The position numbers and the translations under genes are program-made. From Micromonospora echinofusca (GTDB lineage: Bacteria > Actinomycetota > Actinomycetes > Mycobacteriales > Micromonosporaceae): a stretch of 64,000 bases of DNA. Under the pieces are notes generated by a model, which saw nothing but the letters and a program-made list of their open reading frames with translations, made no database searches and was not told where the DNA came from. This document shows positions 3,525 to 40,669 of this stretch, piece by piece; positions within the stretch are counted from its first letter, which is position 1, and every line of letters begins with the position of its first letter. Where the stretch lies: positions 372,001-436,000 of the forward strand of contig NZ_LT607733.1 in the NCBI RefSeq assembly GCF_900091445.1. Direction: 5' to 3'.

Positions 3525-4612
3525 CGTCCCGCTCCCGCATCCCGCTGCCGCGTACCGGGCACGCCAGGGCGGCCGTCGGCGCCCTGGCCGCCGTAGGGGT
3601 CGCCGCCGCCGGGCTCGCGGCCGGCGTCGCCACCGAACGTGCCCTGGTCCGCAAGCTCAAGGCCGACCCCGCCGACCCGTACGCGGGCGAGGTCTTCGGC
3701 GACCAGTGGCACGACGAGTCCTTCCGGCTGGAGATGCCCGACGGCACCGACATCCACGTCGAGGTGGTGGAGCCGACCCGGCCCGTGCCCGGCAACCCGA
3801 CCGTGGTGCTGGTGCACGGCTTCTGCCTCGACATGGGCACCTTCCACTTCCAGCGCAAGCTGCTCGCCGAGCGGGGCGAGCACCGGATCGTCGCGTACGA
3901 CCAGCCCGGGCACGGCCGGTCCGGGCGGCTGGAGACCGGCGAGTACGACCTCACCGCGCTCGGCCGGACGCTGCGCGAGGTGATCGACCGGACCGCCCCG
4001 GAGGGGCCGCTGGTGCTGGTCGGCCACTCGATGGGTGGGATGACCATCATGGCGTTCGCCGAGCTGTTTCCGGAGCTGTTCGGCGACCGGGTCGTGGGCA
4101 CCGTACTGATGGCCACCTCGGGCGGCCTGCTCGCCGAGACCAAGCTGGTGGCGCCCGCCCTGCTCGGCCGGGTCGGCGCGCCGGTGCTGCACATGGTCGG
4201 CAACGTCACCCGCTACGGCGGCCCCGTGATCGACCGGGCGCGCCGCTCCACCACCAACGTGGCCTGGCTGCTCACCCGCAAGTACGGCTTCGGCACCCGC
4301 CACCCCAGCGCGGCCCTGGTGTCGTACGTCGAGACGATGAACTCCCGCACGTCCGCCGACACGGTGACGCGCTACCTGCGGACGCTGGCCACGCACTCCC
4401 GGTTCCCGGCGCTCGCCGCGCTGGCGGACACCCCCGTGCTGGTGGTCGTCGGCGACAAGGACATGATCACCCCCGTGACGCACTCCGAGGAGATCGTCCG
4501 GCGGCTGCCGCACGCCGAGTTCGTCAAGATCTCCGACAGTGGGCACGTGGTGATGCTGGAGCACGCCGACGAGGTCGACGCGGCGCTGGTCCGGTTCCTG
4601 GAGGCGCTGTGA
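3521..4612 (+). CDS. Alpha/beta-fold hydrolase with N-terminal membrane anchor
   Basis: A 363-residue serine hydrolase. The first ~45 residues form one Ala/Gly/Val-rich hydrophobic helix (AAVGALAAVGVAAAGLAAGV) that is likely an uncleaved membrane anchor. The hydrolase domain shows VLVHGFCLDMGTFHF (oxyanion loop), the nucleophile elbow GHSMGGM, an Asp-containing VVVGDKDMITP segment and a C-terminal DSGHVVMLE with the catalytic His. GTG 3521 overlaps the alr stop. The gene sits in the alr-hydrolase-tsaE order seen across actinobacteria. Substrate is unknown; an esterase or lipase role is plausible but not shown by the sequence. Confidence 0.88.
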   Translation: MTSRSRIPLPRTGHARAAVGALAAVGVAAAGLAAGVATERALVRKLKADPADPYAGEVFGDQWHDESFRLEMPDGTDIHVEVVEPTRPVPGNPTVVLVHGFCLDMGTFHFQRKLLAERGEHRIVAYDQPGHGRSGRLETGEYDLTALGRTLREVIDRTAPEGPLVLVGHSMGGMTIMAFAELFPELFGDRVVGTVLMATSGGLLAETKLVAPALLGRVGAPVLHMVGNVTRYGGPVIDRARRSTTNVAWLLTRKYGFGTRHPSAALVSYVETMNSRTSADTVTRYLRTLATHSRFPALAALADTPVLVVVGDKDMITPVTHSEEIVRRLPHAEFVKISDSGHVVMLEHADEVDAALVRFLEAL

Positions 4613-5091
4613 GTCACGTCGTGAAGCTGCCGACGGTCGAGGACACCCACGAGTTCGGGCGGCGGCTGGCCGGGCTGCTGCGCGCCGGCGACCTGCTGCT
4701 GCTGACCGGGCCGCTCGGCGCCGGCAAGACCGCGCTGACCCGGGGCATCGGGGCCGGGCTCGGCGTGCTCGGGGACGTCACCTCGCCCACCTTCGTGATC
4801 GCCCGGGTGCACCGGCCCGACCCGGCCCGGGGCGGCACGGTGGCGCTGGTGCACGCCGACGCGTACCGGCTGGGGGACGCCGCCGACCCGCGCGCCGAGA
4901 TCGACGACCTCGACCTGGACGCCTCGGTGGACGAGTCGGTGACCGTGGTGGAGTGGGGCGAGGGACTGGTCGAGCAGCTCGTCGACGCCCACCTGCGGGT
5001 ACGCGTCGACCGCCGCGACGACGACACCCGGGTGGTCGAGCTGGAGCCGGTGGGCGACGACTGGGCACAGCGCCTGGCCGCCCTCGGGTGA
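4609..5091 (+). CDS. tsaE: tRNA (adenosine(37)-N6)-threonylcarbamoyltransferase complex ATPase TsaE
   Basis: P-loop ATPase partner of TsaB and TsaD in making the t6A37 modification of ANN-decoding tRNAs. The 160-aa product carries the Walker A loop GPLGAGKTALTRG, the TSPTFVIAR switch segment, HADAYRL and a VVEWGEGL Walker-B-like segment, all standard for TsaE. GTG 4609 overlaps the preceding stop by 4 nt; a second GTG at 4621 is possible. Its partners tsaB and tsaD lie 2 kb downstream, separated by ung and an XRE-type regulator, an interruption of the tighter cluster found in mycobacteria. Confidence 0.93.
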   Translation: MSHVVKLPTVEDTHEFGRRLAGLLRAGDLLLLTGPLGAGKTALTRGIGAGLGVLGDVTSPTFVIARVHRPDPARGGTVALVHADAYRLGDAADPRAEIDDLDLDASVDESVTVVEWGEGLVEQLVDAHLRVRVDRRDDDTRVVELEPVGDDWAQRLAALG

Positions 5092-5151
5092 GCGCTGTCG
5101 TACCGGCTGCCTAGAGTGCGCGGGACGGACCCGACAGGCGAAAGGTTGCCG

Positions 5152-5853
5152 ATGCCCGACGACGCCCCCACCTTGGACCTGCTGGCGCTGCTGCCGGAGG
5201 ACTGGCGTGCCGTGCTCACCCCGCACCTCGATCCGGCGCGCACGGCCGCCCTGGCCGAGTTCGTCGCGGGGGAGTACGCGACCCGCACCGTCTTCCCGCC
5301 GGTCGAGGACCTCTTCTCGGCCTACCGGCTGTGCGCGCCGGCCGACTGCCGGGTGCTGATCCTCGGGCAGGATCCCTACCACAAGGCGGGGCAGGCGCAC
5401 GGGCTCAGCTTCAGCGTGCGCGAGGGCGTGAGCGTGCCGCCCTCGCTGCGCAACGTCTTCAAGGAGCTGGGCGAGGACCTCGGCGTGCCGAAGCCGCGCG
5501 GCGGCAACCTCAGCGGCTGGGCGGCGCAGGGCGTGCTGCTGCTCAACGCGGTCCTCACCGTCCGCGAGGCGACGCCCGGCTCGCACGCCAACCGGGGCTG
5601 GGAGGAGTTCACCGACGCCACCATCCGGGCGCTCGACGCGATGGACTCCCGGGTGGTCTTCCTGCTCTGGGGCGGCTACGCGCGCAAGAAGGCCGCCCTG
5701 GTCACCAACCCGCAGCACGTGGTGCTGGAGGCCGGGCACCCCAGCCCGATGAACCCGCGTGGCTTCCTCGGCAGCCGCCCGTTCAGCGCCGCCAACAAGG
5801 CGCTCGCCGACGCCGGCCTGCCCACGGTCGACTGGGAACGCTCAGCCGGCTGA
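5152..5853 (+). CDS. ung: Uracil-DNA glycosylase, family 1
   Basis: Removes uracil from DNA as the first step of base excision repair. The 233-aa protein has the family-1 water-activating motif GQDPYH with Asp74, the AHGLSFSV loop, the LLLNAVLTV segment and the HPSPMNPRGF DNA-intercalation loop with His196. ATG 5152 is chosen because GGCGAAAGG lies just upstream; a GTG at 5116 would add 12 residues but coincides with a TAGAGT promoter-like box (5112-5117). The 3' end overlaps the convergent XRE-type gene by 12 bp. Confidence 0.96.
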   Translation: MPDDAPTLDLLALLPEDWRAVLTPHLDPARTAALAEFVAGEYATRTVFPPVEDLFSAYRLCAPADCRVLILGQDPYHKAGQAHGLSFSVREGVSVPPSLRNVFKELGEDLGVPKPRGGNLSGWAAQGVLLLNAVLTVREATPGSHANRGWEEFTDATIRALDAMDSRVVFLLWGGYARKKAALVTNPQHVVLEAGHPSPMNPRGFLGSRPFSAANKALADAGLPTVDWERSAG

Positions 5854-6609
5854 CGACGGGCCGGCACCCGGTCGGCTCCCGCCCTCCGTCGGCGGGTGCT
5901 GACCGCCCGGCGGGTGCTCACCGCCGCCGTCGCGGTAACGGCGCAGCAGCTCGGCGGCGCCCGGATCGGCCAACTCCAGCTCGACGAGCGGTACCACCGG
6001 GTAGCCGCGTCCGCCGTGGCGTACCTCGACGGCCTCCGGTAGCTCGTCGCACATCGTCGCCCGGAGCTCGCCGTACCGGGTCTGCCACCGGTGCTCGCCG
6101 GGCTCCTCGGGTTCGAGCCGCAGCCCACCGAACTCGCCCCAGCGCTCGTTCCACCGCTGCCCGTATGCCGCGTCCAACCAGGCGGTGAACCGGGTCGAGT
6201 CACGCCAGCGGACCGCGATCTCCAGGGCGTCGACCGGTAGGGGCGCGCCCTGGAGCAGCGCGGCCGTGCCGCCCGTGAGCACGTACGGCAGGTCGCCGAG
6301 TTTGTCCAGGAACCGGTCCAGCCCGAGGGCGTCGACCCGGTCGGCGAGCGGCTGGGCGGCCAGCTCGGCGATCTGGGCGTCCAGATGCGCGTCGAGCGGT
6401 TCCACCGCGACGGTCAGCTGGACGTCCATCGCGGCGAGCAGCCGCTCCAGCACCAGCACGCTCGGCGTGCGGTCGCCGCGTTCGATGCGCGCGACCGAGG
6501 CCTGGCTGACGCCTGCCAGCTCGGCCAGTTGTCGTTGGCTGAGCTTGCTCAACTCGCGCTGACGCCGGACGGCGCGGCCGAACAGGGAGACGAGGCGGCT
6601 GGTCGACAT
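5842..6609 (-). CDS. XRE-family helix-turn-helix protein with a C-terminal nucleotidyltransferase-like domain
   Basis: The N-terminus is a clear HTH_3 domain (RQRELSKLSQRQLAELAGVS, then QASVARIERGDRTPS). It is followed by a linker and a region LPYVLTGGTAALLQG with PVDALEIAV, which resembles the GG-and-DxD core of AbiEii/MNT-type nucleotidyltransferases, but the second acidic residue is Glu and the spacing is altered, so catalysis is doubtful. I start it at ATG 6607-6609 (MSTSRLVSLF); ATGs at 6625-6627 or 6655-6657 would add 6 or 16 residues, but a promoter-like TTGTCA-17-TATCGC and a palindrome cover that region. Neighbour of ung and tsaB; could be a stand-alone regulator or a relic of a toxin-antitoxin type system. 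Confidence 0.8.
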   Translation of the reverse strand: MSTSRLVSLFGRAVRRQRELSKLSQRQLAELAGVSQASVARIERGDRTPSVLVLERLLAAMDVQLTVAVEPLDAHLDAQIAELAAQPLADRVDALGLDRFLDKLGDLPYVLTGGTAALLQGAPLPVDALEIAVRWRDSTRFTAWLDAAYGQRWNERWGEFGGLRLEPEEPGEHRWQTRYGELRATMCDELPEAVEVRHGGRGYPVVPLVELELADPGAAELLRRYRDGGGEHPPGGQHPPTEGGSRPGAGPSSAG

Positions 6610-6638
6610 CCCGACATGATGAACCATGTCCTCCCGGG

Positions 6639-6680
6639 TGCGATACCTCTCAGGCATTTTTATGACAAGGAGGTATCACA
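6639..6680. promoter_or_regulatory. Palindromic operator and promoter of the XRE-type gene
   Basis: TGCGATACCTC at 6639-6649 and GAGGTATCACA at 6670-6680 are inverted copies with one mismatch in 11 bp. Between and over them, on the minus strand, TTGTCA (6663-6668) and TATCGC (6640-6645) are spaced 17 bp like -35 and -10 boxes. A second inverted repeat GACATG/CATGTC lies at 6613-6630. This fits autoregulation by the HTH protein; that is inference. Confidence 0.5.
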
Positions 6681-7081
6681 CTCGCTGGGATCGTCGGTGG
6701 GGAGTCCCTGGAAGACGACCGTCGGTGGAGCCTTCCGCGCGAGCCTGAGCCGCGCGAGCCTGAGCCGCGCGACCGGGCTCTACCCGCGCGCCCAACCCGG
6801 CCGCCAGCGGTGGTGACTTCCGGCGGCACCGGCGACGACCTGTCCGGCAGGTGCCGTCGGACAGGCCCGGAACGAGGTGTCCACCGGAATACCGTCGCCG
6901 GCAAACAAACCCTGGCGCCGGCGTATCCCAGCGTCGGCAAACCCGAGCGCCGCATGGCCGGACGCCGGCACGTCCGAGCGCCGGCACGTCCGAGGGCCGG
7001 CTGGTGCGCGTGCCGGCTGGTGCGCGTGCCGGCACACCGGGGGATGGGGAAGGGCGTCACCGGGGGTGACGAAGGGGCGGC
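6681..7081. other. 400-bp non-coding gap with short tandem repeats
   Basis: No open reading frame here has gene-like composition. The stretch holds a 15-bp tandem repeat near 6739-6768 (CGCGCGAGCCTGAGC units) and a cluster of 16-bp repeats at 6963-7027, and GCCGGC-centred degenerate units from about 6898. It separates the XRE-type gene from tsaB. Confidence 0.6.
6963..7027 (+). repeat. Two back-to-back 16-bp tandem duplications sharing a GCCGGC core
   Basis: CGCCGGCACGTCCGAG is repeated exactly at 6963-6978 and 6979-6994, then GCCGGCTGGTGCGCGT is repeated exactly at 6996-7011 and 7012-7027. The two units are different but both are 16 bp and begin at GCCGGC, suggesting a small expanding minisatellite. 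Confidence 0.85.
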
Positions 7082-30175: not shown

Positions 30176-31588
30176 GTGCGTCGTACCCGCCGTCGGATCC
30201 GTCCCGCGCTCGCCGTCGCCGTCGTCGCGGCGCTGGTGTTCGCGGCCTGCACCGACGGCGGCGACGAGCGGGGCGACTTCCGGCCGGGAGCGGCCGACCT
30301 CGCCGACCCGTACGTGCCGGGGGCCGGCAACGGCGGCTACGACGTCGCGGGCTACCGCCTCGCCGTGCGCTACGACCCGGCGACCGACCGGCTCTCCGGG
30401 CGGGCCACGCTCACGGCCACCGCGACCGCGGCGCTGTCCCGGTTCAACCTGGACCTCGCCGGGCTGGACGTGTCGCGGGTGGCCGTCGACGGCCGGCCGG
30501 CCGGGTCCGCCCGCGACGGCGACGAGCTGGTGGTCACCCCGCGCGACGGGCTCTCCCGGGGCGCCCGGTTCACCGTCGAGGTGGACTACTCCGGCGTGCC
30601 GGCGGCGAAGACCGACGGGCAGCTCGGCAGCGGCGGCTTCCTGCACTCCGCCGACGGGGCGATCGCGCTCGGCCAGCCCTGGTCGGCGGCCACCTGGTTC
30701 CCGGTCAACGACCACCCGTCCGACAAGGCCACGTACGACATCGAGGTGACCGTCCCGGAGGGGCTGGCCGCGCTGAGCAACGGGGTGCCGGGGCAACGGA
30801 CGAGCGCCGACGGCTGGACGACCTGGCGCTGGGCCGAGCGGGCGCCGATGGCCAGCTACCTGACGACCCTGGTGATCGGCGACTACCGGGTGCAGAGCGG
30901 CACGCACGCCGGCAGGCCGATGGTCACGGCGGTGCCGGCGAGCCTGCCGGCGACCGGGCCGGAGGCCGCCTCGCTGGCCCGCACCGGCGAGATCGCCGAC
31001 TTCCTGGCCACCCGGTTCGGGCCGTACCCGTTCGACTCCTACGGCGGCGTGGTGGTCACCGACGGCCGGGTCGGCTACGCGCTGGAGACCCAGTCGCGGC
31101 CGGTCTACGGGCCGGGCTTCTTCCGCGGCGGCCGGCCCAACCTGGGCGTGGTCGCGCACGAGCTGGCCCACCAGTGGTTCGGCAACAGCGTGGCGCTGAG
31201 CCGGTGGAGCGACATCTGGCTCAACGAGGGCTTCGCCAGCTACGCGGAGTGGCTGTGGGAGGAGCACGACGGCGGTCGCACCGCGCAGCGCACCTTCGAG
31301 CTGGAGTACGCCGGCACCGACTGGTCCCGGCCGTCCGTCGACCCCGGACGGTCCCGGTTGTTCGGTGCGGCCGTCTACAAGCGCGGCGCGCTGGCCGTGC
31401 ACGCCCTGCGCCGTACGGTCGGCGACGACACGTTCTTCCGCATCCTGCGGACCTGGACCGCCGAGCGACGCGACGGCAACGCCACCACCGACGACCTGGT
31501 CGCGCTGGCCGAGCGGGTCGCCGGGAGGCCCCTGCGTCCGGTCTTCGACGCCTGGCTCGTCGGCGGCACCGCCCCCGCGTTGCCCTGA
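30176..31588 (+). CDS. M1-family zinc metallopeptidase lipoprotein (copy 1)
   Basis: A 470-aa exported aminopeptidase-like protein. Signal peptide with lipobox FAAC (VFAACTDGG). The gluzincin motif HELAHQWFGNS (from ~residue 328) plus NEGFASYAEWLW supplies both zinc His and the third Glu ligand. The exopeptidase GxMEN motif is replaced by a GYALETQSRP segment, a variant seen in bacterial secreted M1 relatives. Probably trims extracellular peptides. The next gene is a paralog with the same architecture, so this is a tandem duplication. Confidence 0.93.
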   Translation: MRRTRRRIRPALAVAVVAALVFAACTDGGDERGDFRPGAADLADPYVPGAGNGGYDVAGYRLAVRYDPATDRLSGRATLTATATAALSRFNLDLAGLDVSRVAVDGRPAGSARDGDELVVTPRDGLSRGARFTVEVDYSGVPAAKTDGQLGSGGFLHSADGAIALGQPWSAATWFPVNDHPSDKATYDIEVTVPEGLAALSNGVPGQRTSADGWTTWRWAERAPMASYLTTLVIGDYRVQSGTHAGRPMVTAVPASLPATGPEAASLARTGEIADFLATRFGPYPFDSYGGVVVTDGRVGYALETQSRPVYGPGFFRGGRPNLGVVAHELAHQWFGNSVALSRWSDIWLNEGFASYAEWLWEEHDGGRTAQRTFELEYAGTDWSRPSVDPGRSRLFGAAVYKRGALAVHALRRTVGDDTFFRILRTWTAERRDGNATTDDLVALAERVAGRPLRPVFDAWLVGGTAPALP

Positions 31589-31773
31589 GCCGGGCGGGCA
31601 GGGTCCGGGCCCCCGGCGACGCTCGGTAGGCTGCCGCCGGACCCCGGCGCCGCACCGCCCGGTTCGCGCCGGCCGCCTCCGCGCCGCCGGCCCGGGCGAG
31701 CGGCACCCGCCGGGCGCGGGTCCGCTAGGGCGTGGCCGGTGGGGCAGCCGGCGGCGCAGGGAGGGGCGAGGCG

Positions 31774-33237
31774 ATGACGCTGTCGCGGCGGACGCTGTGT
31801 GCGGGCACCGGCCTGCTGCTGGCCGGGACGCTCGGGCTGACCGCGTGCGGGTCGGCCGACGAGCCGACCCCGGCACCGACCCCGGCCGCCGCCTCGCCGG
31901 GCGCGTCGCGTCAGTTCAGCCCAGGGGCGGCCGGCTCCGGCGACGAGTACTTCCCGACCTACGGCAACGGCGGGTACGACGTCAGCCGCTACACCGTCAA
32001 GGTGCGCTACGACCCGGCGGAGGACCGCCTGAGCGGAACCACCACCGTGCAGGCGGCGGCGACCAGTGACCTGTCCGCGTTCAACCTGGACCTGGCCGGG
32101 CTGACCGTGCGGTCCGTGACGGTGGACGGGGCCCCGGCGAAGCACGGCCGCAAGGGCGACGAGCTGGTCGTCACGCCGGCCCGCGGCCTGATCGCCGGCA
32201 ACGGCTTCGTCGCCGAGATCGTGTACGAGGGCGAGCCGGAGCCGCTGCGCAACGAGGCACTCGGCGTCGGTGGCTTCCTGCACACCGAGGACGGGGCCAT
32301 CGCCCTCGGGCAGCCCGAGTCGGCGAGCACGTGGTTCCCGGTCAACGACCACCCCTCGGACAAGGCCACGTACGACATCGAGATCACCGTGCCGGAGGGG
32401 TTGACGGCGGTCAGCAACGGCGTGCCGGCGGGGAAGAGCACGACCGGCGGCTGGACCACCTGGAAGTGGGCCGAGCGCAGCCCGATGGCGAGCTACCTGA
32501 GCACCGTGGTCATCGGCAGGTTCCGGATCACCGAGGGCGAGCACAAGGGACGGCCGGTGTTCCACGCGGTCACCACGGACCTGCCGAAGGGCGCGGCGGA
32601 CCGGTCGATCGCCGGCACGGTCGAGGTGGCCGACTACCTGGAGAGCGTGTTCGGGCCGTACCCGGTCGGGGCGTACGGCGGCGTCGTGGTCGCCGACGAC
32701 CGGATCCGGTACGCGCTGGAGACGCAGAGCCGCCCGGTCTACGGCGCGAGCTTCTTCTCCCGGGGCGAGAACACCGGCGTGGTGGCCCACGAGCTGGCGC
32801 ACCAGTGGTTCGGCAACAGCGTGTCGCTGGCGAAGTGGCAGGACATCTGGCTCAACGAGGGCCTGGCCACGTACGCGGAGTGGCTGTGGGCCGAGCACGA
32901 CGGCGGGCGTACCGCCCAGCAGGCGTTCGACGTCCGCTACGCCGGCTCGTCCGGCCAGGTGTGGCGTACGCCGCCGGGCGAGCCGGGGGCGGAGAACCTG
33001 TTCAGCGAGTCGGTCTACCAGCGCGGCGGGATGACCGTGCACGCGCTGCGGGTGGCCGTCGGCGACAAGGCGTTCTTCGAGATCCTGAAGACCTGGGCGG
33101 CGCAGAAGCGCGACGCGAACGCGACCACGGCCGAGTTCGTCGCGTTGGCCGAGCGGGTCTCGGGTGAGCAGCTCGACGACCTCTTCGAGGCGTGGCTGTA
33201 CGGCACCCAGCGCCCCGCGCGCCCCGAGCGCCGGTGA
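31774..33237 (+). CDS. M1-family zinc metallopeptidase lipoprotein (copy 2)
   Basis: A 487-aa paralog of the preceding gene with long identical stretches (ATWFPVNDHPSDKATYDIE region, HELAHQWFGNSV, YAEWLW). The signal peptide SRRTLCAGTGLLLAGTLG ends at lipobox LTAC and starts with a twin-arginine-like SRRT, so it may use Tat whereas copy 1 looks Sec-type. A Ser/Pro/Ala linker follows the Cys. ATG 31774 has GGGGCGAGG upstream; a TAGGCT promoter-like box lies at about 31626. Metal ligands are complete. Confidence 0.93.
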   Translation: MTLSRRTLCAGTGLLLAGTLGLTACGSADEPTPAPTPAAASPGASRQFSPGAAGSGDEYFPTYGNGGYDVSRYTVKVRYDPAEDRLSGTTTVQAAATSDLSAFNLDLAGLTVRSVTVDGAPAKHGRKGDELVVTPARGLIAGNGFVAEIVYEGEPEPLRNEALGVGGFLHTEDGAIALGQPESASTWFPVNDHPSDKATYDIEITVPEGLTAVSNGVPAGKSTTGGWTTWKWAERSPMASYLSTVVIGRFRITEGEHKGRPVFHAVTTDLPKGAADRSIAGTVEVADYLESVFGPYPVGAYGGVVVADDRIRYALETQSRPVYGASFFSRGENTGVVAHELAHQWFGNSVSLAKWQDIWLNEGLATYAEWLWAEHDGGRTAQQAFDVRYAGSSGQVWRTPPGEPGAENLFSESVYQRGGMTVHALRVAVGDKAFFEILKTWAAQKRDANATTAEFVALAERVSGEQLDDLFEAWLYGTQRPARPERR

Positions 33238-34532: not shown

Positions 34533-36230
34533 ATGCGGTACGACGTGCTCGTCATCGGGTCCGGCTTCGGCGGCAGCGTCACCGCGCTGCGGCTGGCGGA
34601 GAAGGGCTATTCCGTCGGGGTGCTGGAGGCGGGCCGGCGCTTCGCCGACGACGAGTTCCCGCAGACCTCCTGGCGGCTGCGGCGGTTCCTGTGGGCGCCC
34701 CGCCTCGGCTGCTACGGCCTCCAGCGGCTCACCCTGCTGCGCCCGGCCGACCGGAAGGCCGGCGGCGGCGTGCTGGTGCTCTCCGGCGCCGGGGTCGGCG
34801 GCGGCTCGCTGGTCTACGCCAACACGCTCTACGAGCCGCTGGACGCCTTCTACGACGACCCGCAGTGGCGGGACGTCACCGACTGGCGCGACGAGCTGGC
34901 CCGCCACTACGACCAGGCGAAGCGGATGCTCGGCGCCACCACGTACCCGCTGGTCACCCGCGCGGACCGGGCGATGCGGGCGGTGGCCGACCGGATGGGG
35001 GTGGGGCACACCTACCACGCCACCCCGGTCGGCGTGTTCATCGGCAGTCCCGGCCGGCGGGCCGCCGACCCGTACTTCGGCGGCGCGGGGCCGGAGCGCA
35101 CCGGCTGCACGCACTGCGGGGGGTGCATGACCGGCTGCCGGCAGGGGGCGAAGAACACGCTGGTCAAGAACTACCTGTGGCTGGCCGAGCGGCTGGGCGC
35201 GCGGGTGCACCCGCTGACCACGGTCACCGCCGTGCGCCCGGCCGAGGGCGGCGGGTACGCGGTGCACACCGTGCGTACCGGGGCCTGGCTGCGTACGCGG
35301 CGGCAGGTGATCCACGCCGACCAGGTGGTCTTCGCCGCAGGCGCGCTCGGCACCCAGCGGCTGCTGCACTCGATGCGGGCGGAGGGTGCGCTGCCCGCGC
35401 TCTCGCCCCGCCTCGGCGAGCTGACCCGGACCAACTCGGAGGCGATCCTCGGCGCCTCGGTACCCCGCCGGCGGGCCCGCGAGCAGGGGCTGGACTTCAC
35501 CGAGGGGGTGGCGATCACCAGCTCGTTCCACCCCGACCCGCAGACCCACATCGAGCCGGTCCGCTACGGGCGGGGCTCCAACGCGATGGGGCTGCTCCAG
35601 TCGCTGCTGGTCGACGGCGGGCCGCACCGGGTACGCCGCTGGCTGGGGACCCTGCTGCGTCAGCCCGGCACGGCGGCCCGGCTGGCCTCGGTGCGCGGCT
35701 GGTCGGAGCGTACGGTGATCGCCCTGGTCATGCAGTCGGCGGACAACTCGCTGACCACCCGGCTGCGGCGGGGCCTGCTCGGCCGGCGCCTGGTCTCCGG
35801 GCCGGGGCACGGCGCGCCCAACCCGACCTGGATCCCGGCCGGCAACGAGGCGGCGCGCCTACTGGCCGAGGAGATCGGCGGTACGCCCGGCGGCGCGCTG
35901 ACCGAGCCGTTCGACATCCCGCTGACCGCGCACATCCTCGGCGGGGCCGTGATCGGCGCCACCCCGGCCGACGGCGTCATCGACCCGTGGCACCGGGTCT
36001 TCGGCCACCCGGGGCTGCACGTGGTCGACGGGGCGGCGGTGTCGGCGAACCTCGGGGTGAACCCGTCGCTGACCATCACCGCCCAGGCGGAGCGGGCGAT
36101 GTCGTTCTGGCCCAACAAGGGCGAGCAGGACCCGAGACCGCCCGTGGGCTCGCCGTACCGTCGCCTTCCCCCGGTGCCGCCGCGCCACCCCGCCGTCCCC
36201 CCGGACGCCCCGGGCGCCCTGCGGACGTGA
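34533..36230 (+). CDS. GMC-family FAD oxidoreductase (ChoD-like)
   Basis: A 565-aa flavoprotein. FAD-binding dinucleotide loop VLVIGSGFGGSVTALRLAEKG, second GMC signature GAGVGGGSLVYANT, and a Cys cluster GCTHCGGCMTGCRQGAKNTL that could hold an iron-sulfur centre. It is the ortholog by position and motif of mycobacterial Rv3409c (ChoD), which also lies between guaB3 and guaA; despite the name ChoD is not a proven cholesterol oxidase, so the substrate is open. C-terminus DGAAVSANLGVNPSLTITA is standard GMC. The last ~35 residues are Pro-rich. ATG 34533 chosen from the FAD motif. Confidence 0.92.
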   Translation: MRYDVLVIGSGFGGSVTALRLAEKGYSVGVLEAGRRFADDEFPQTSWRLRRFLWAPRLGCYGLQRLTLLRPADRKAGGGVLVLSGAGVGGGSLVYANTLYEPLDAFYDDPQWRDVTDWRDELARHYDQAKRMLGATTYPLVTRADRAMRAVADRMGVGHTYHATPVGVFIGSPGRRAADPYFGGAGPERTGCTHCGGCMTGCRQGAKNTLVKNYLWLAERLGARVHPLTTVTAVRPAEGGGYAVHTVRTGAWLRTRRQVIHADQVVFAAGALGTQRLLHSMRAEGALPALSPRLGELTRTNSEAILGASVPRRRAREQGLDFTEGVAITSSFHPDPQTHIEPVRYGRGSNAMGLLQSLLVDGGPHRVRRWLGTLLRQPGTAARLASVRGWSERTVIALVMQSADNSLTTRLRRGLLGRRLVSGPGHGAPNPTWIPAGNEAARLLAEEIGGTPGGALTEPFDIPLTAHILGGAVIGATPADGVIDPWHRVFGHPGLHVVDGAAVSANLGVNPSLTITAQAERAMSFWPNKGEQDPRPPVGSPYRRLPPVPPRHPAVPPDAPGALRT

Positions 36231-36248: not shown

Positions 36249-37358
36249 TCAACTGCGGCGCCGGGTGCCCCGGTGGGGGAGCAGCCCGCCACCCGCCCGG
36301 CCCGGGGGCCCGGACCCGCGTCGGTCCGTCCAGGCGACCAGCGCCGCGTGCGGGAGGGTCAGCGCGGCCAGCACGGCGAACGTCGCGGGCAGCGGGTCCG
36401 CCCGGTGGCCGGGCCAGGTGACCAGGGCGATCAGGGCGACGACGGCGAGCACCGTGGGAACCGCGGCCTGTCGGGCGAAGCGACGCAGCGGCGGTCCGAC
36501 CCGTCCGGTCGCCAGGTCTGCCGTGTTGCGCGGGTCGTGCCGCAGCAACCGGGCGACGTGGCGGCAGGAGTGCCAGAGCGCGAAGTACGCACCGATGGCC
36601 AGGGCCGGCGGCACGGTGCCGAACAGTGCGACGAGGAGGACGGGTTCGGCCGCGTCGCGGGTGCGTCCGGCACGCAGGTCCCGGCTCACGGTGAGCACGA
36701 CCGCGTACAGCACGGTGGCCAACGCCAGTGCCCGCACCTCGACGGCGATCAGGCCCGGGACCCGAGGGGAGACAGCGGCCAGCACCGGGTCGACCTGGTC
36801 CCGCCAGAGCGCCAACGGAACGACCACCGGCGGTCCGCCGTATGCGAGCGTGGCGGCCACCGTCACGCGGGTGGGCCGCCGGTCCCGCTCGGCGTGGAAC
36901 GCCACGTCGGCGGTGCCGAAGTGGACGACCGACACGACGAGGAACCCGACCAGCGCCACGTCCGGCGCGGCCTGGAAGGCCACCAGCCCGGCACCGGCCA
37001 CGGCGGTGTAGACCACCAGCAGCGCCACGCGCGCCGGCATCGGCCGGACGCGTGCCGACAGCCAGGCGGGCACGAGGTGGTCGACCGCGCCGTGCGGGAG
37101 CCCGAGGAGCAGCCCGGCGACCAGGAAGGCCGGCGAGCCGCCCAGCCCGGCGGCGCCGATCAGCGGCGCCAGCGCCAGCAGCCCGCCGAGCGCGAACTGC
37201 GAGGCGGTCCCGGCACCTCGCAGCAGCCGGTCCGGCTGCGCCGGCGCCCCGGTTCCGTACGCGGACGACGGTCGGCGTCGGGGACGGGCCCCTTCCTGGG
37301 CCACCGGCACCGGAGGGGCGACGCCCCTGGCCGGGTCAGACGACGGTGAGGTGACCAC
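36249..37358 (-). CDS. blh: Brp/Blh-family beta-carotene 15,15'-dioxygenase
   Basis: Integral-membrane iron enzyme that cleaves beta-carotene into two retinal molecules. The 369-aa protein has eight or so hydrophobic helices and the four conserved His segments: GLPHGAVDHLVP, VVHFGTADV, FALWHSCRHVARLL and LTLPHAALVAW. The first ~45 residues are Arg/Pro-rich and may not all be translated; GTG 37358 overlaps the stop of the rhodopsin gene by 23 bp, so both are one transcription unit. It provides chromophore for the two neighbouring rhodopsins. No carotenoid-forming crt genes are in the window. Confidence 0.93.
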   Translation of the reverse strand: MVTSPSSDPARGVAPPVPVAQEGARPRRRPSSAYGTGAPAQPDRLLRGAGTASQFALGGLLALAPLIGAAGLGGSPAFLVAGLLLGLPHGAVDHLVPAWLSARVRPMPARVALLVVYTAVAGAGLVAFQAAPDVALVGFLVVSVVHFGTADVAFHAERDRRPTRVTVAATLAYGGPPVVVPLALWRDQVDPVLAAVSPRVPGLIAVEVRALALATVLYAVVLTVSRDLRAGRTRDAAEPVLLVALFGTVPPALAIGAYFALWHSCRHVARLLRHDPRNTADLATGRVGPPLRRFARQAAVPTVLAVVALIALVTWPGHRADPLPATFAVLAALTLPHAALVAWTDRRGSGPPGRAGGGLLPHRGTRRRS

Positions 37359-38034
37359 GGTCGGACAGGGTGCGTAGCCGGCTGAGATCGACGATGCTCC
37401 AGCCCACCTTCGACAGGATGGACAGCCCGACGAAGAGCATGCTCGTGGTGGTGGAACCGAGCAGGCCCACCCCGGACGGGCCGAGGAGCCAGAACAGCGG
37501 GTAACCGACCCAGAGCACGCTGAGCAGAAGGGCAGCCTCCGTGTAGACGGCCGCGATCCGTTCCGGCTGGCGGTGGGCGTGGGCGCGCAGCGGTCCCCAG
37601 ACCAGAGCGAAGACCGCGAGCAGGGACAGCATCCCGATCGCGTACAGGCCGTAGCGGGATGTGGCGTTCGCGGTGAGATCGGCTGCCAGGCCGCTGAGGA
37701 TCACCACCACGTTCGCCCCGACGAGGGCGGTCATCAACCGCCAGCGGCGTCCGGGCAGGGAATGCGTGCCGGTCAGCATCAGGGCCACCAGCAACAGCGG
37801 GGCGGTGACCACCCAGTCGACGTAGCGCGCCCAGTAGACCGTGTGGCCGGCCACCTCCGCCCGTCCGCCGCCGAGCGCCATGACGAGATACCAGAAGCCG
37901 GACCAGAGCGGGATCGCGATCGCCACCCGGTATTCGCTGCGCGGAACTCCCCGTGGGTCCGCGCGCCACCGGTTGAACAGCAGGACCCCGCCCGCCATGG
38001 CGGCCACGTACGTCCACAGCCACCACTCGGTCAT
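37336..38034 (-). CDS. Bacteriorhodopsin-family microbial rhodopsin with D-T-A motif and no Asp-212 equivalent
   Basis: A 232-aa seven-helix protein. Helix C reads YWARYVDWVVTAPLLL: Arg70, Asp73, Thr77, Ala84 equal bacteriorhodopsin R82, D85, T89, D96A. Helix F has LWVGYPLFWLLGP and helix G TSMLFVGLSILSKVGW with the retinal lysine Lys209. Four residues before it stands Ser205 where nearly all type-1 rhodopsins have Asp (D212). BR Asp115 is Asn and the proton-release Glu residues are absent. This looks like a sensory or slow-cycling form rather than a typical proton pump, but function is open. Co-transcribed with blh and divergent from the NDQ rhodopsin. Confidence 0.93.
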   Translation of the reverse strand: MTEWWLWTYVAAMAGGVLLFNRWRADPRGVPRSEYRVAIAIPLWSGFWYLVMALGGGRAEVAGHTVYWARYVDWVVTAPLLLVALMLTGTHSLPGRRWRLMTALVGANVVVILSGLAADLTANATSRYGLYAIGMLSLLAVFALVWGPLRAHAHRQPERIAAVYTEAALLLSVLWVGYPLFWLLGPSGVGLLGSTTTSMLFVGLSILSKVGWSIVDLSRLRTLSDRGHLTVV

Positions 38035-38244
38035 GTCCGCTCCTCGGCCGGTTCTGGGCGGCGCCGCGCCCGTCGGGCGGCGCTTGTGGCGGCCCGGAGG
38101 TGAGCGGGGCGCCGCTGCCGGCACGCCGGTGGAGATCTCGTTCGGGAGTCCGGTGCCGGCTGGCACAGATAACCTATACGCGTCAAAAGCCACTAAGTGG
38201 GCAATGGCGGCGGTTCGTGCCGCGAAGAAAGCCGTGAGGTCGCC
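38035..38244. promoter_or_regulatory. Divergent promoter region of the two rhodopsin genes
   Basis: A 210-bp gap, mostly GC-rich except for an A/T-rich island at 38168-38210. That island contains TAACCT (38170-38175), TATACG, ACGCGT and an exact palindrome CCACTAAGTGG (38190-38200). This is the only structured part and the probable control site for light- or carotenoid-responsive expression; the regulator is not in the window. Confidence 0.5.
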
Positions 38245-39069
38245 GTGAACGTCGAGAACCTGTTCGGTTACAACGTGATCCAGTACACGCTGGTGTCCCA
38301 CGTGCTCACCCTGGGCTTCGCGGTGATGGCTGCCGGGCTCGTCTACTTCCTCGCGACCCGCGGCTCCGCCGCACCGCGTTACCAGCTCGCCTCGGTGCTC
38401 TCCGCCGTGGTGATGGTGTCGGCCTTCTTCGAGCTGTGGGTGCTCTCGGAACGCTGGCGCCAGGCGTTCACCTGGAACGGGACGGCCTACGTCCAGACGG
38501 ACGTGCTCTTCTCCAACGGCTACCGGTACATGAACTGGTCCATCGACGTCCCCGTCCTGCTGATCCAGTTGCTCATCGTGCTGGGGATCACCGGTCGGGC
38601 GTTCCACCTCAACTGGGCGATGTTCGTGGTCGGCGGCCTCGGGATGATCTACACCGGCTACGCCGGGCAGTTCTACGAGGTGGACCGCTCGGCCCCGTAC
38701 TGGATCTGGGGCCTGGTCAGCACGGCGTTCTTCCTGTTCCTGCTCGTCCTGGTCGCCCGGGTCATCTTCGGCAGCCTGGCCCGGCTGCCGGAGTCCGCCC
38801 GGGGCCCCGCGCGCGCCGTCTGGTGGCTGGTGCTCGTCTCCTGGCTGCTCTACCCGGGTGCCTATCTGATGCCGGCGATGTGGGACTCCGCCGACGGGGT
38901 GGTGGCGAGGCAGATCACCTACACCGTGGCCGACATCACCTCCAAGGTGATCTACGGCGTGCTGCTCAGCGTCATCGCGCGCAAGGTCAGCGCCGCCGAG
39001 GGGTACGCCCCGGCGGTCGAGGACGACGTCGCCCGCCCTCGCGGGGGGATCACCGCGGCGGCGCGGTGA
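38245..39069 (+). CDS. NDQ-motif rhodopsin, probable light-driven sodium pump
   Basis: A 274-aa seven-helix rhodopsin. Helix C is [18 protein letters not shown]: Asn97, Asp101 and Gln108 form the NDQ triad that defines sodium-pumping rhodopsins such as KR2 (N112/D116/Q123), with Arg94 and Asp86 (KR2 R109, D102). The N-terminal [11 protein letters not shown] keeps the KR2 His30 equivalent; KR2 Asn61 is Ser50. Helix G is [13 protein letters not shown] with Asp230 and retinal Lys234, and the YPGAYLMP and [11 protein letters not shown] segments are near identical to KR2. GTG 38245 gives an N-terminus matching the family; an upstream ATG at 38197 would add a polar 16-residue tail. Confidence 0.95.

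Positions 39070-39115: not shown

Positions 39116-40669
<1,554 letters not shown>

Follow-up and report, generated by a model that had tools for sequence, protein, structure and literature searches.

Introduction

According to the accessible text of PMC11006869, NDQ rhodopsins are split by the residue at the position of KR2 L74, and Subgroup 2 carries Glu there as an extra counterion of the Schiff base. The same text describes KR2 D102 as absent or replaced in Subgroup 2, and reports Na+ pumping by ErNaR, which belongs to Subgroup 2, at pH values as low as 5. SrNaR, which also belongs to Subgroup 2, turns over about 4 Na+ per minute, as stated in the accessible part of its description. A Micromonospora relative, the pump of strain CNB394, when expressed in mammalian cells gave currents of 1-2 pA and a weak membrane signal, and KR2 and the Indibacter pump were equal in the same screen (PMC5531490, accessible text). 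For the xenorhodopsins, Pro at the position of BR Asp212 was present in all members treated in the accessible text of PMC3198991 and is given for the family in that of PMC5118547, where this Pro in place of BR Asp212 is held to set the direction of the xenorhodopsins.

Here we describe a locus of Micromonospora echinofusca in which rhodopsin genes of both kinds stand side by side. The window, that is, the whole stretch of DNA that was analysed, has 64,000 nucleotides (contig NZ_LT607733.1, positions 372,001 to 436,000 of the forward strand), and all coordinates below are those of the window. Judged by its sequence, the NDQ rhodopsin appears to be an ordinary one, a sodium pump of a known subgroup, and the two-rhodopsin module with its atypical partner seems the more interesting part.

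The NDQ rhodopsin gene and its conserved residues

The gene at 38245..39069 (plus strand) encodes an NDQ rhodopsin of 274 aa of the Subgroup 2 type, a predicted light-driven outward Na+ pump. Its frame is open and intact from the GTG start at 38245 to the stop at 39069, and the start is backed by an upstream GAGG and by close relatives, whose starts align with it. The protein matched the Pfam Bac_rhodopsin profile with 132.8 bits (cut-off 24.6), and an NCBIfam profile search gave no match for it or for the partner rhodopsin described below. The solved structures closest to it by sequence were 8jh0, a chloride-pump set (5g2c and others), 8qle and the KR2 set. We take 8jh0 to be IaNaR of Indibacter and the chloride-pumping set to be NM-R3 of Nonlabens. 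The structure 8qle was judged to be ErNaR by its residues (E64, D105 etc.), as given in the accessible text of PMC11006869. Identity was 44% with KR2 over 255 aa (E 7e-71 in a single comparison) and 42% with ErNaR, and the gene was under purifying selection within the genus (dN/dS 0.14-0.21, 3 pairs); with this identity, E value and dN/dS, the likeness to KR2 is not due to chance.

The letters of KR2 and other PDB chains were aligned by MAFFT with 140 NDQ-type sequences, namely the NDQ protein, the best 120 of 1633 matches (E <= 1e-30) and 19 loci; all 140 were distinct, with some near-copies among them. The alignment confirmed the sequence-only reading of helix C, as the NDQ triad was in the KR2 register (N97=N112, D101=D116, Q108=Q123; codons from N97 over D101 to Q108 at 38533..38568, plus strand). 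It also confirmed that the equivalents of four further KR2 residues are kept, namely R94=R109, D230=D251, H19=H30 and K234=K255, the last being the retinal Schiff-base lysine Lys234 (codon 38944..38946, plus strand), and S59=S70 and Tyr14=Y25 were in register as well. Asp86 had been listed among the kept residues too, but it lies one column off KR2 Asp102, where Val87 aligns. Among the segments that had been quoted as matching KR2, YPGAYLMP and GQFYEV were identical, but DITSKVIYG reads DVSSKVIYG in KR2. The triad and KR2 R109, D251, K255 and S70 were invariant in 140/140 aligned sequences (including the best 120 of 1633), and in the same set H30 (86/140) and Y25 (83/140) were not.

KR2 Asn61 is replaced by Ser50 in the NDQ protein, as had been noticed before, and this had been offered as a hint that ion selectivity might differ. 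However, Ser was found at this position in 130/140 relatives (including the best 120 of 1633) and in 8jh0, and the Na+-pumping ErNaR has Ala; since Ser is the norm among relatives, the replacement says little about selectivity, and we set this hint aside.

What had been overlooked is Glu63 in helix B (codon 38431..38433, plus strand), which by the alignments and the accessible text of PMC11006869 stands where KR2 has Leu74 and ErNaR has E64. Among the 140 aligned sequences (including the best 120 of 1633), this position held Glu in 125, Ile in 8, Gln in 5 and Ala in 2. Thus the NDQ protein has both marks of Subgroup 2, E63 at the L74 position and V87 at the D102 position. At the position of ErNaR R19, a positive residue near the protomer interface, it has Ser18, which speaks against full likeness to ErNaR; in the accessible text of PMC11006869 this Arg is highlighted in a figure legend and is not stated as universal. 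Trees were quick ones with SH-aLRT support alone, and the NDQ tree had 76 rows (39 of the best 120 of 1633 matches, 22 loci, 11 site genomes and 4 references). In it the NDQ protein and ErNaR fell into a clade of 61 rows without KR2 and IaNaR (support 89), and other Glu rows lay outside this clade.

A divergent rhodopsin gene, followed by a Blh gene, adjoins the NDQ gene

The gene had been placed within a conserved chromosomal block, and this stands: by Pfam, it is flanked on the left by a GMC-type oxidoreductase gene (34533..36230, plus strand), which usually adjoins guaA in the genus, and on the right by guaA for GMP synthase (39116..40669, plus strand). The sequence-only reading had missed that the NDQ gene is one half of a divergent pair with a second rhodopsin gene, which is followed by Blh. 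The second rhodopsin gene (37336..38034, minus strand; Pfam 156 bits) encodes 232 aa of the Anabaena sensory rhodopsin/xenorhodopsin clade, with Ser205 in helix G. The region between the two divergent start codons has 210 bp (38035..38244) and is expected to hold both promoters; no conserved promoter motif was found between the divergent rhodopsin genes, and the sequence blocks seen there were common to close relatives only. The Blh/Brp gene (36249..37358, minus strand) encodes a beta-carotene 15,15'-dioxygenase for retinal formation (PF15461, 171.4 bits; TIGR03753, 173.7 bits with a cut-off of 95.25). The last 23 bp of the second rhodopsin gene also lie within its longest frame, whose start is a candidate one. 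The dN/dS of Blh was 0.50-0.72 in five pairs, which is high for an enzyme.

Beyond the left flank, two adjoining related frames at 30176-31588 and 31732-33237 (plus strand) both contain HELAHQWFG, presumably a zinc-metallopeptidase (M1-like) motif, and they are probably a tandem duplication.

In the host genome (7.0 Mb, one contig) PF01036 matched only twice, and these matches were the two rhodopsins. A lycopene-cyclase-like gene was found with PF05834 (232.9 bits), a profile which also rings in E. coli and other controls, and it scored 90 bits against TIGR01790, under the cut-off of 209.5. There is one phytoene/squalene-synthase-like gene, whose top NCBIfam score was HpnD, under the cut-off (CrtB or HpnD). 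As both carotenoid candidates stayed below every NCBIfam cut-off, the supply of beta-carotene falls short of proof, and on these genes a supply of retinal in the host is plausible.

The partner rhodopsin

The nearest solved relatives of the partner were Anabaena sensory rhodopsin (ASR) and the xenorhodopsin 7zmy, which we take to be BcXeR. Counting Met as 1, the partner keeps the counterion Asp73, Lys209, Glu34 and Asp216, and it differs from its class at three positions, with Ser205 for Pro, Asn108 for Asp and Ala78 for Thr. The Thr/Asp pair of the partner clade presumably corresponds to BR T90/D115. Glu34 and Asp216 take the position of the cytoplasmic proton acceptor pair, E36/D217 in ASR and E35/D216 in PoXeR, which the accessible text of PMC5118547 describes as the cytoplasmic acceptor system. 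Asn108 aligns with BcXeR Asp107, and with an alignment made to BcXeR only, its position is taken to be that of PoXeR Asp108, where mutation to E or N reduces pumping (PMC5118547, accessible text).

To follow these residues, 79 distinct sequences were aligned (76 homologue matches, the partner, ASR and BcXeR), and the helix-G residue was Pro in 46, Ser in 32 and Asp in 1. Asp109 and Thr80 (ASR numbers) were kept together in 45/46 Pro-type rows, the exception being ASR itself with Gln and Thr, and both were lost in 31/32 Ser-type rows, P0156 being the one that keeps both. Of the 31 changed rows, 27 had Asn with Ala or Ser and four had others, and 7/31 retained a hydroxyl as Ser80. The partner tree had 64 rows, with 36 of the 76 homologue matches used and P0156 left out. 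Rooted on ASR/7zmy, it put the Ser rows among the Pro rows within the Anabaena sensory rhodopsin clade, and the 34 Ser rows were one side of a single branch (SH-aLRT 95). Because of this single branch and the coupled loss of residues, a single origin of the Ser type in Micromonosporaceae, accompanied by a coupled change of the retinal pocket, is most likely as far as sequences tell. The dN/dS of the partner gene was 0.26-0.43 in five pairs.

With one negative charge near the Schiff base and the cytoplasmic acceptor kept, the partner could be a weak inward H+ pump, or else a sensor. A circuit with an ASR-type transducer is unlikely, since a profile search of the host genome for the ASRT transducer (PF07100) did not find it.

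Distribution across genomes

The genome collections held one genome per species. A profile search of 160 genomes of the genus gave PF01036 matches above the cut-off in 24, and three weak matches (G006, G023, G109) were set aside and counted as rhodopsin-free. The two rhodopsins were typed by place, match length and tblastn, which gave the NDQ rhodopsin in 17 genomes, the xenorhodopsin-like partner in 23 and both in 16. The two genes were divergent neighbours in 14 of these 16 and stood apart in G064 and G077; 11 of the 14 pairs were at the GMC-guaA site, and those of G072, G092 and G119 were elsewhere with no GMC or guaA gene adjoining. The NDQ rhodopsin without the partner was found in G135, and the partner without the NDQ rhodopsin in seven genomes; G068, G099 and G111 carry the partner alone, with 48-50% identity and outside the GMC-guaA site. 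Blh (PF15461) was found in 25/160 genomes, that is, in 24/24 with a rhodopsin and in 1/136 others (G071). Fisher tests gave p 1e-27 for Blh with rhodopsin and p 1e-15 for NDQ with partner, and both values are overstated, since the genomes are related to one another and do not count as independent.

Of 397 genomes sampled from the order, 17 had an NDQ relative with >60% identity, nine belonging to the genus and eight to one other family; the partner at E <= 1e-40 was found in 11, all within the genus. Matches of the NDQ query at E <= 1e-40 were found in 11 genomes besides the host in a phylum sample of 396, with 40-44% identity. Relatives of 60-80% identity and more came from named Micromonospora, Verrucosispora, Modestobacter, Blastococcus and Pseudokineococcus genomes, and other named relatives were from a filamentous cyanobacterium, Erythrobacteraceae and a Phycisphaerales MAG. 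The label Geodermatophilaceae for the second NDQ-bearing family was inferred from the named relatives. Rhodopsins of Geodermatophilaceae are reportedly also the subject of Tarlachkov et al. 2020, and rhodopsin genes in this family are reported in PMC10190537. An NDQ rhodopsin in an actinomycete had been called unexpected, which these named actinomycete relatives contradict, as does the pump of Micromonospora sp. CNB394, expressed in 2017 (PMC5531490, accessible text).

In L005, L006 and L007 (Verrucosispora-type, sp. C95) a three-gene module without adjoining GMC/guaA genes lies at about 4040-6820 and has a canonical Pro-type partner. Six frames surround this module in L005, a LuxR-type regulator, a pyridine nucleotide-disulphide oxidoreductase and four without a Pfam match.

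The GMC-guaA site and the history of the module

The GMC-guaA gap was computed for 132/160 genomes (135 guaA and 132 GMC placements were typed). In rhodopsin-free genomes it was <= 600 bp in 104/111 (median 121 bp). The 11 genomes that have both rhodopsins at the site showed 2.7-3.5 kb, four that have the partner and Blh there showed about 2.1 kb, and two that have only the partner there showed 0.9-1.0 kb. In G064, G077 and G135, NDQ and Blh lie away from the site.

Some genomes had other arrangements. G071 (L128) has Blh alone in a gap of 1.1 kb, with no rhodopsin found in the genome, and this could be a partly deleted module. G134 (L129) and G135 (L107) have a gap of 5.0 kb without a match to NDQ, partner or Blh, so the site may accept other insertions. 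G077 (L104) has a Pro-type partner without Blh at the site, and its NDQ and Blh are on another contig; this partner is unlike those of the 16 other occupied sites.

The host tree was made from GMC and guaA DNA of 61 genomes, 21/24 rhodopsin-bearing ones and 40 without (G071 and G134 were picked for their odd gaps). Occupied sites were scattered on it, yet somewhat clustered, with 12 changes for a shuffled mean of 15.8, and a number as low was reached in 8/500 shuffles. Distances were correlated between NDQ and host (r 0.41, p 0.0018, n 11), which is moderate congruence, between partner and host (r 0.54, p 0.0001, n 17) and between NDQ and partner (r 0.81, n 11). GC3 was 0.964 for NDQ and 0.90-0.91 for the partner and Blh, and the seven flanking genes had 0.87-0.98.

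A phylogeny had been proposed as a way to see whether the actinomycete NDQ rhodopsins form one transferred clade. In the NDQ tree the Micromonosporaceae rows were one clade (SH-aLRT 99), adjoined by a weaker clade (85) of Geodermatophilaceae, Kineosporiaceae, Aquipuribacter and metagenome sequences, and KR2 and IaNaR lay outside the actinomycete clade. The suggested acquisition is not supported as a recent event, since the GC3 of the gene is within the range of its neighbours and its clade stands apart from KR2 and IaNaR. On the same grounds, a recent transfer from marine Bacteroidetes was rejected as the simplest reading.

It could still be that single strains of the genus took up a gene cassette through the GMC-guaA site in recent, separate events. 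The patchy occurrence of NDQ (17/160), the scatter of occupied sites with its 12 changes, the module standing elsewhere in three genomes, NDQ and Blh standing elsewhere in G064, G077 and G135, and the deviating Pro-type partner of G077 would all suit such a history, but distant species have the same site and gene order, GC3 is like that of the neighbours, gene and host distances correlate, and the incomplete sets (in G064 and G077 the site has the partner but no Blh, in G071 it has Blh alone) could be steps of deletion, so we regard it as possible but doubtful. That the family has long had the module, which was then repeatedly lost and to some extent exchanged in the genus, fits better than recent acquisition, because there is one Micromonosporaceae clade, codon use is native, and NDQ and host distances correlate. 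It is possible that actinomycetes received the gene by an ancient transfer, or that it was exchanged within the genus, and the site counts cannot separate gain from loss.

Proposed function of the NDQ rhodopsin

The gene at 38245-39069 very probably encodes an outward Na+ pump driven by green light, a member of NDQ family Subgroup 2. This prediction is based on the triad and the Arg, Asp and Lys of the Schiff-base region, which are in the KR2 register and invariant in 140/140 sequences (including the best 120 of 1633), and it is supported by Glu at KR2 L74, the identity with KR2 (44%) and ErNaR (42%), the co-occurrence with Blh, the carotenoid-like genes and purifying selection. In the proposed mechanism, retinal made from beta-carotene by the neighbouring Blh would bind Lys234, light would isomerise it, and the Schiff-base proton would pass to Asp101, whose pKa would be kept low by Glu63 near the Schiff base. 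Na+ would then enter from the cytoplasm past Asn97/Asp101 and leave to the outside past Arg94 and Asp230. The pump would work alongside the divergently transcribed second rhodopsin of xenorhodopsin descent. Some species of the genus would have kept the module at the GMC-guaA site, and most would have lost it or had it exchanged by recombination.

Since the Subgroup 2 protein SrNaR has a turnover of about 4 Na+ per minute, a weak pump or a sensor is possible for the NDQ protein, and the describers of SrNaR, in the accessible text, name sensing among its possible roles. If the NDQ protein were a slow photoreceptor or sensor with residual Na+ transport, as they speculated for SrNaR, this would also agree with the 1-2 pA of the CNB394 pump, though KR2 was alike in that screen (accessible text). 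However, ErNaR is of Subgroup 2 too and pumps Na+ well (accessible text), the triad, Arg, Asp and Lys are invariant in the 140 aligned sequences (including the best 120 of 1633), and by Pfam the immediate neighbour genes are no transducers, which makes a sensor unlikely. Still less likely is that the protein is mainly an outward H+ pump in a host where Na+ is too scarce: KR2 moves H+ without Na+ (PMC5531490, PMC9728251, accessible texts), but ErNaR with the same Glu stays Na+-selective at acidic pH, and almost no H+ pumping is given for SrNaR in the accessible texts. A pseudogene or inactive remnant, for which the patchy distribution only would speak, can practically be dismissed in view of the open frame, the conserved active site and the dN/dS of 0.14-0.21.

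Beyond the Na+ pump, it is conceivable, though rather improbable, that the divergent genes form one device in which NDQ moves Na+ out and the partner moves H+ in, a Na+/H+ exchange without net charge with retinal from Blh for both, and that the Ser-type partner is a new functional class of rhodopsin with a new direction, ion or signalling mode. The theme of Na+ out and H+ in has precedents, as Parvularcula oceani has three rhodopsins, a sodium pump, a chloride pump and an inward H+ pump (PMC5118547, accessible text), and a putative Na+/H+ antiporter gene lies in nanohaloarchaeal xenorhodopsin neighbourhoods (PMC3198991, accessible text).

What makes the locus valuable is its module: in Micromonospora-type actinomycetes, a Subgroup 2 sodium pump and a xenorhodopsin-like protein form a natural, conserved pair. 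Our searches of the open-access literature, subscription papers and supplements aside, turned up no account of the divergent gene arrangement or of Ser-type xenorhodopsins. With its Ser type, the partner clade offers a natural test of the residue that is held to determine the direction of xenorhodopsins (PMC5118547, accessible text), and the physiological role can be tested in related species, which have only the NDQ gene, only the partner, both or neither.

Comparison with known systems

ErNaR (Erythrobacter sp. HL-111; 8qle) shares with the NDQ protein the NDQ triad and, in KR2 numbers, Glu at L74, Leu at Q78, no Asp at D102 and Ser at G263; unlike ErNaR, to which its identity is 42%, the NDQ protein has Ser18 for Arg19, Ser50 for Ala51 and shorter loops. 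KR2 (Krokinobacter eikastus; 4xtl, 3x3b) has the triad and the Schiff-base surroundings in common with it at 44% identity, and the changes from KR2 are Leu74 to Glu, Asn61 to Ser, Gln78 to Leu, Asp102 to Val and Gly263 to Ser. NaR of Micromonospora sp. CNB394 (WP_018784639.1) is of the same genus by name and an NDQ sodium pump by its authors' description (PMC5531490, accessible text). The partner has the counterion Asp and the cytoplasmic Glu and Asp in common with ASR and BcXeR (7zmy), but unlike them it has Ser for Pro in helix G, Ala for Thr80 in helix C, and Asn at position 109, where ASR has Gln and BcXeR has Asp.
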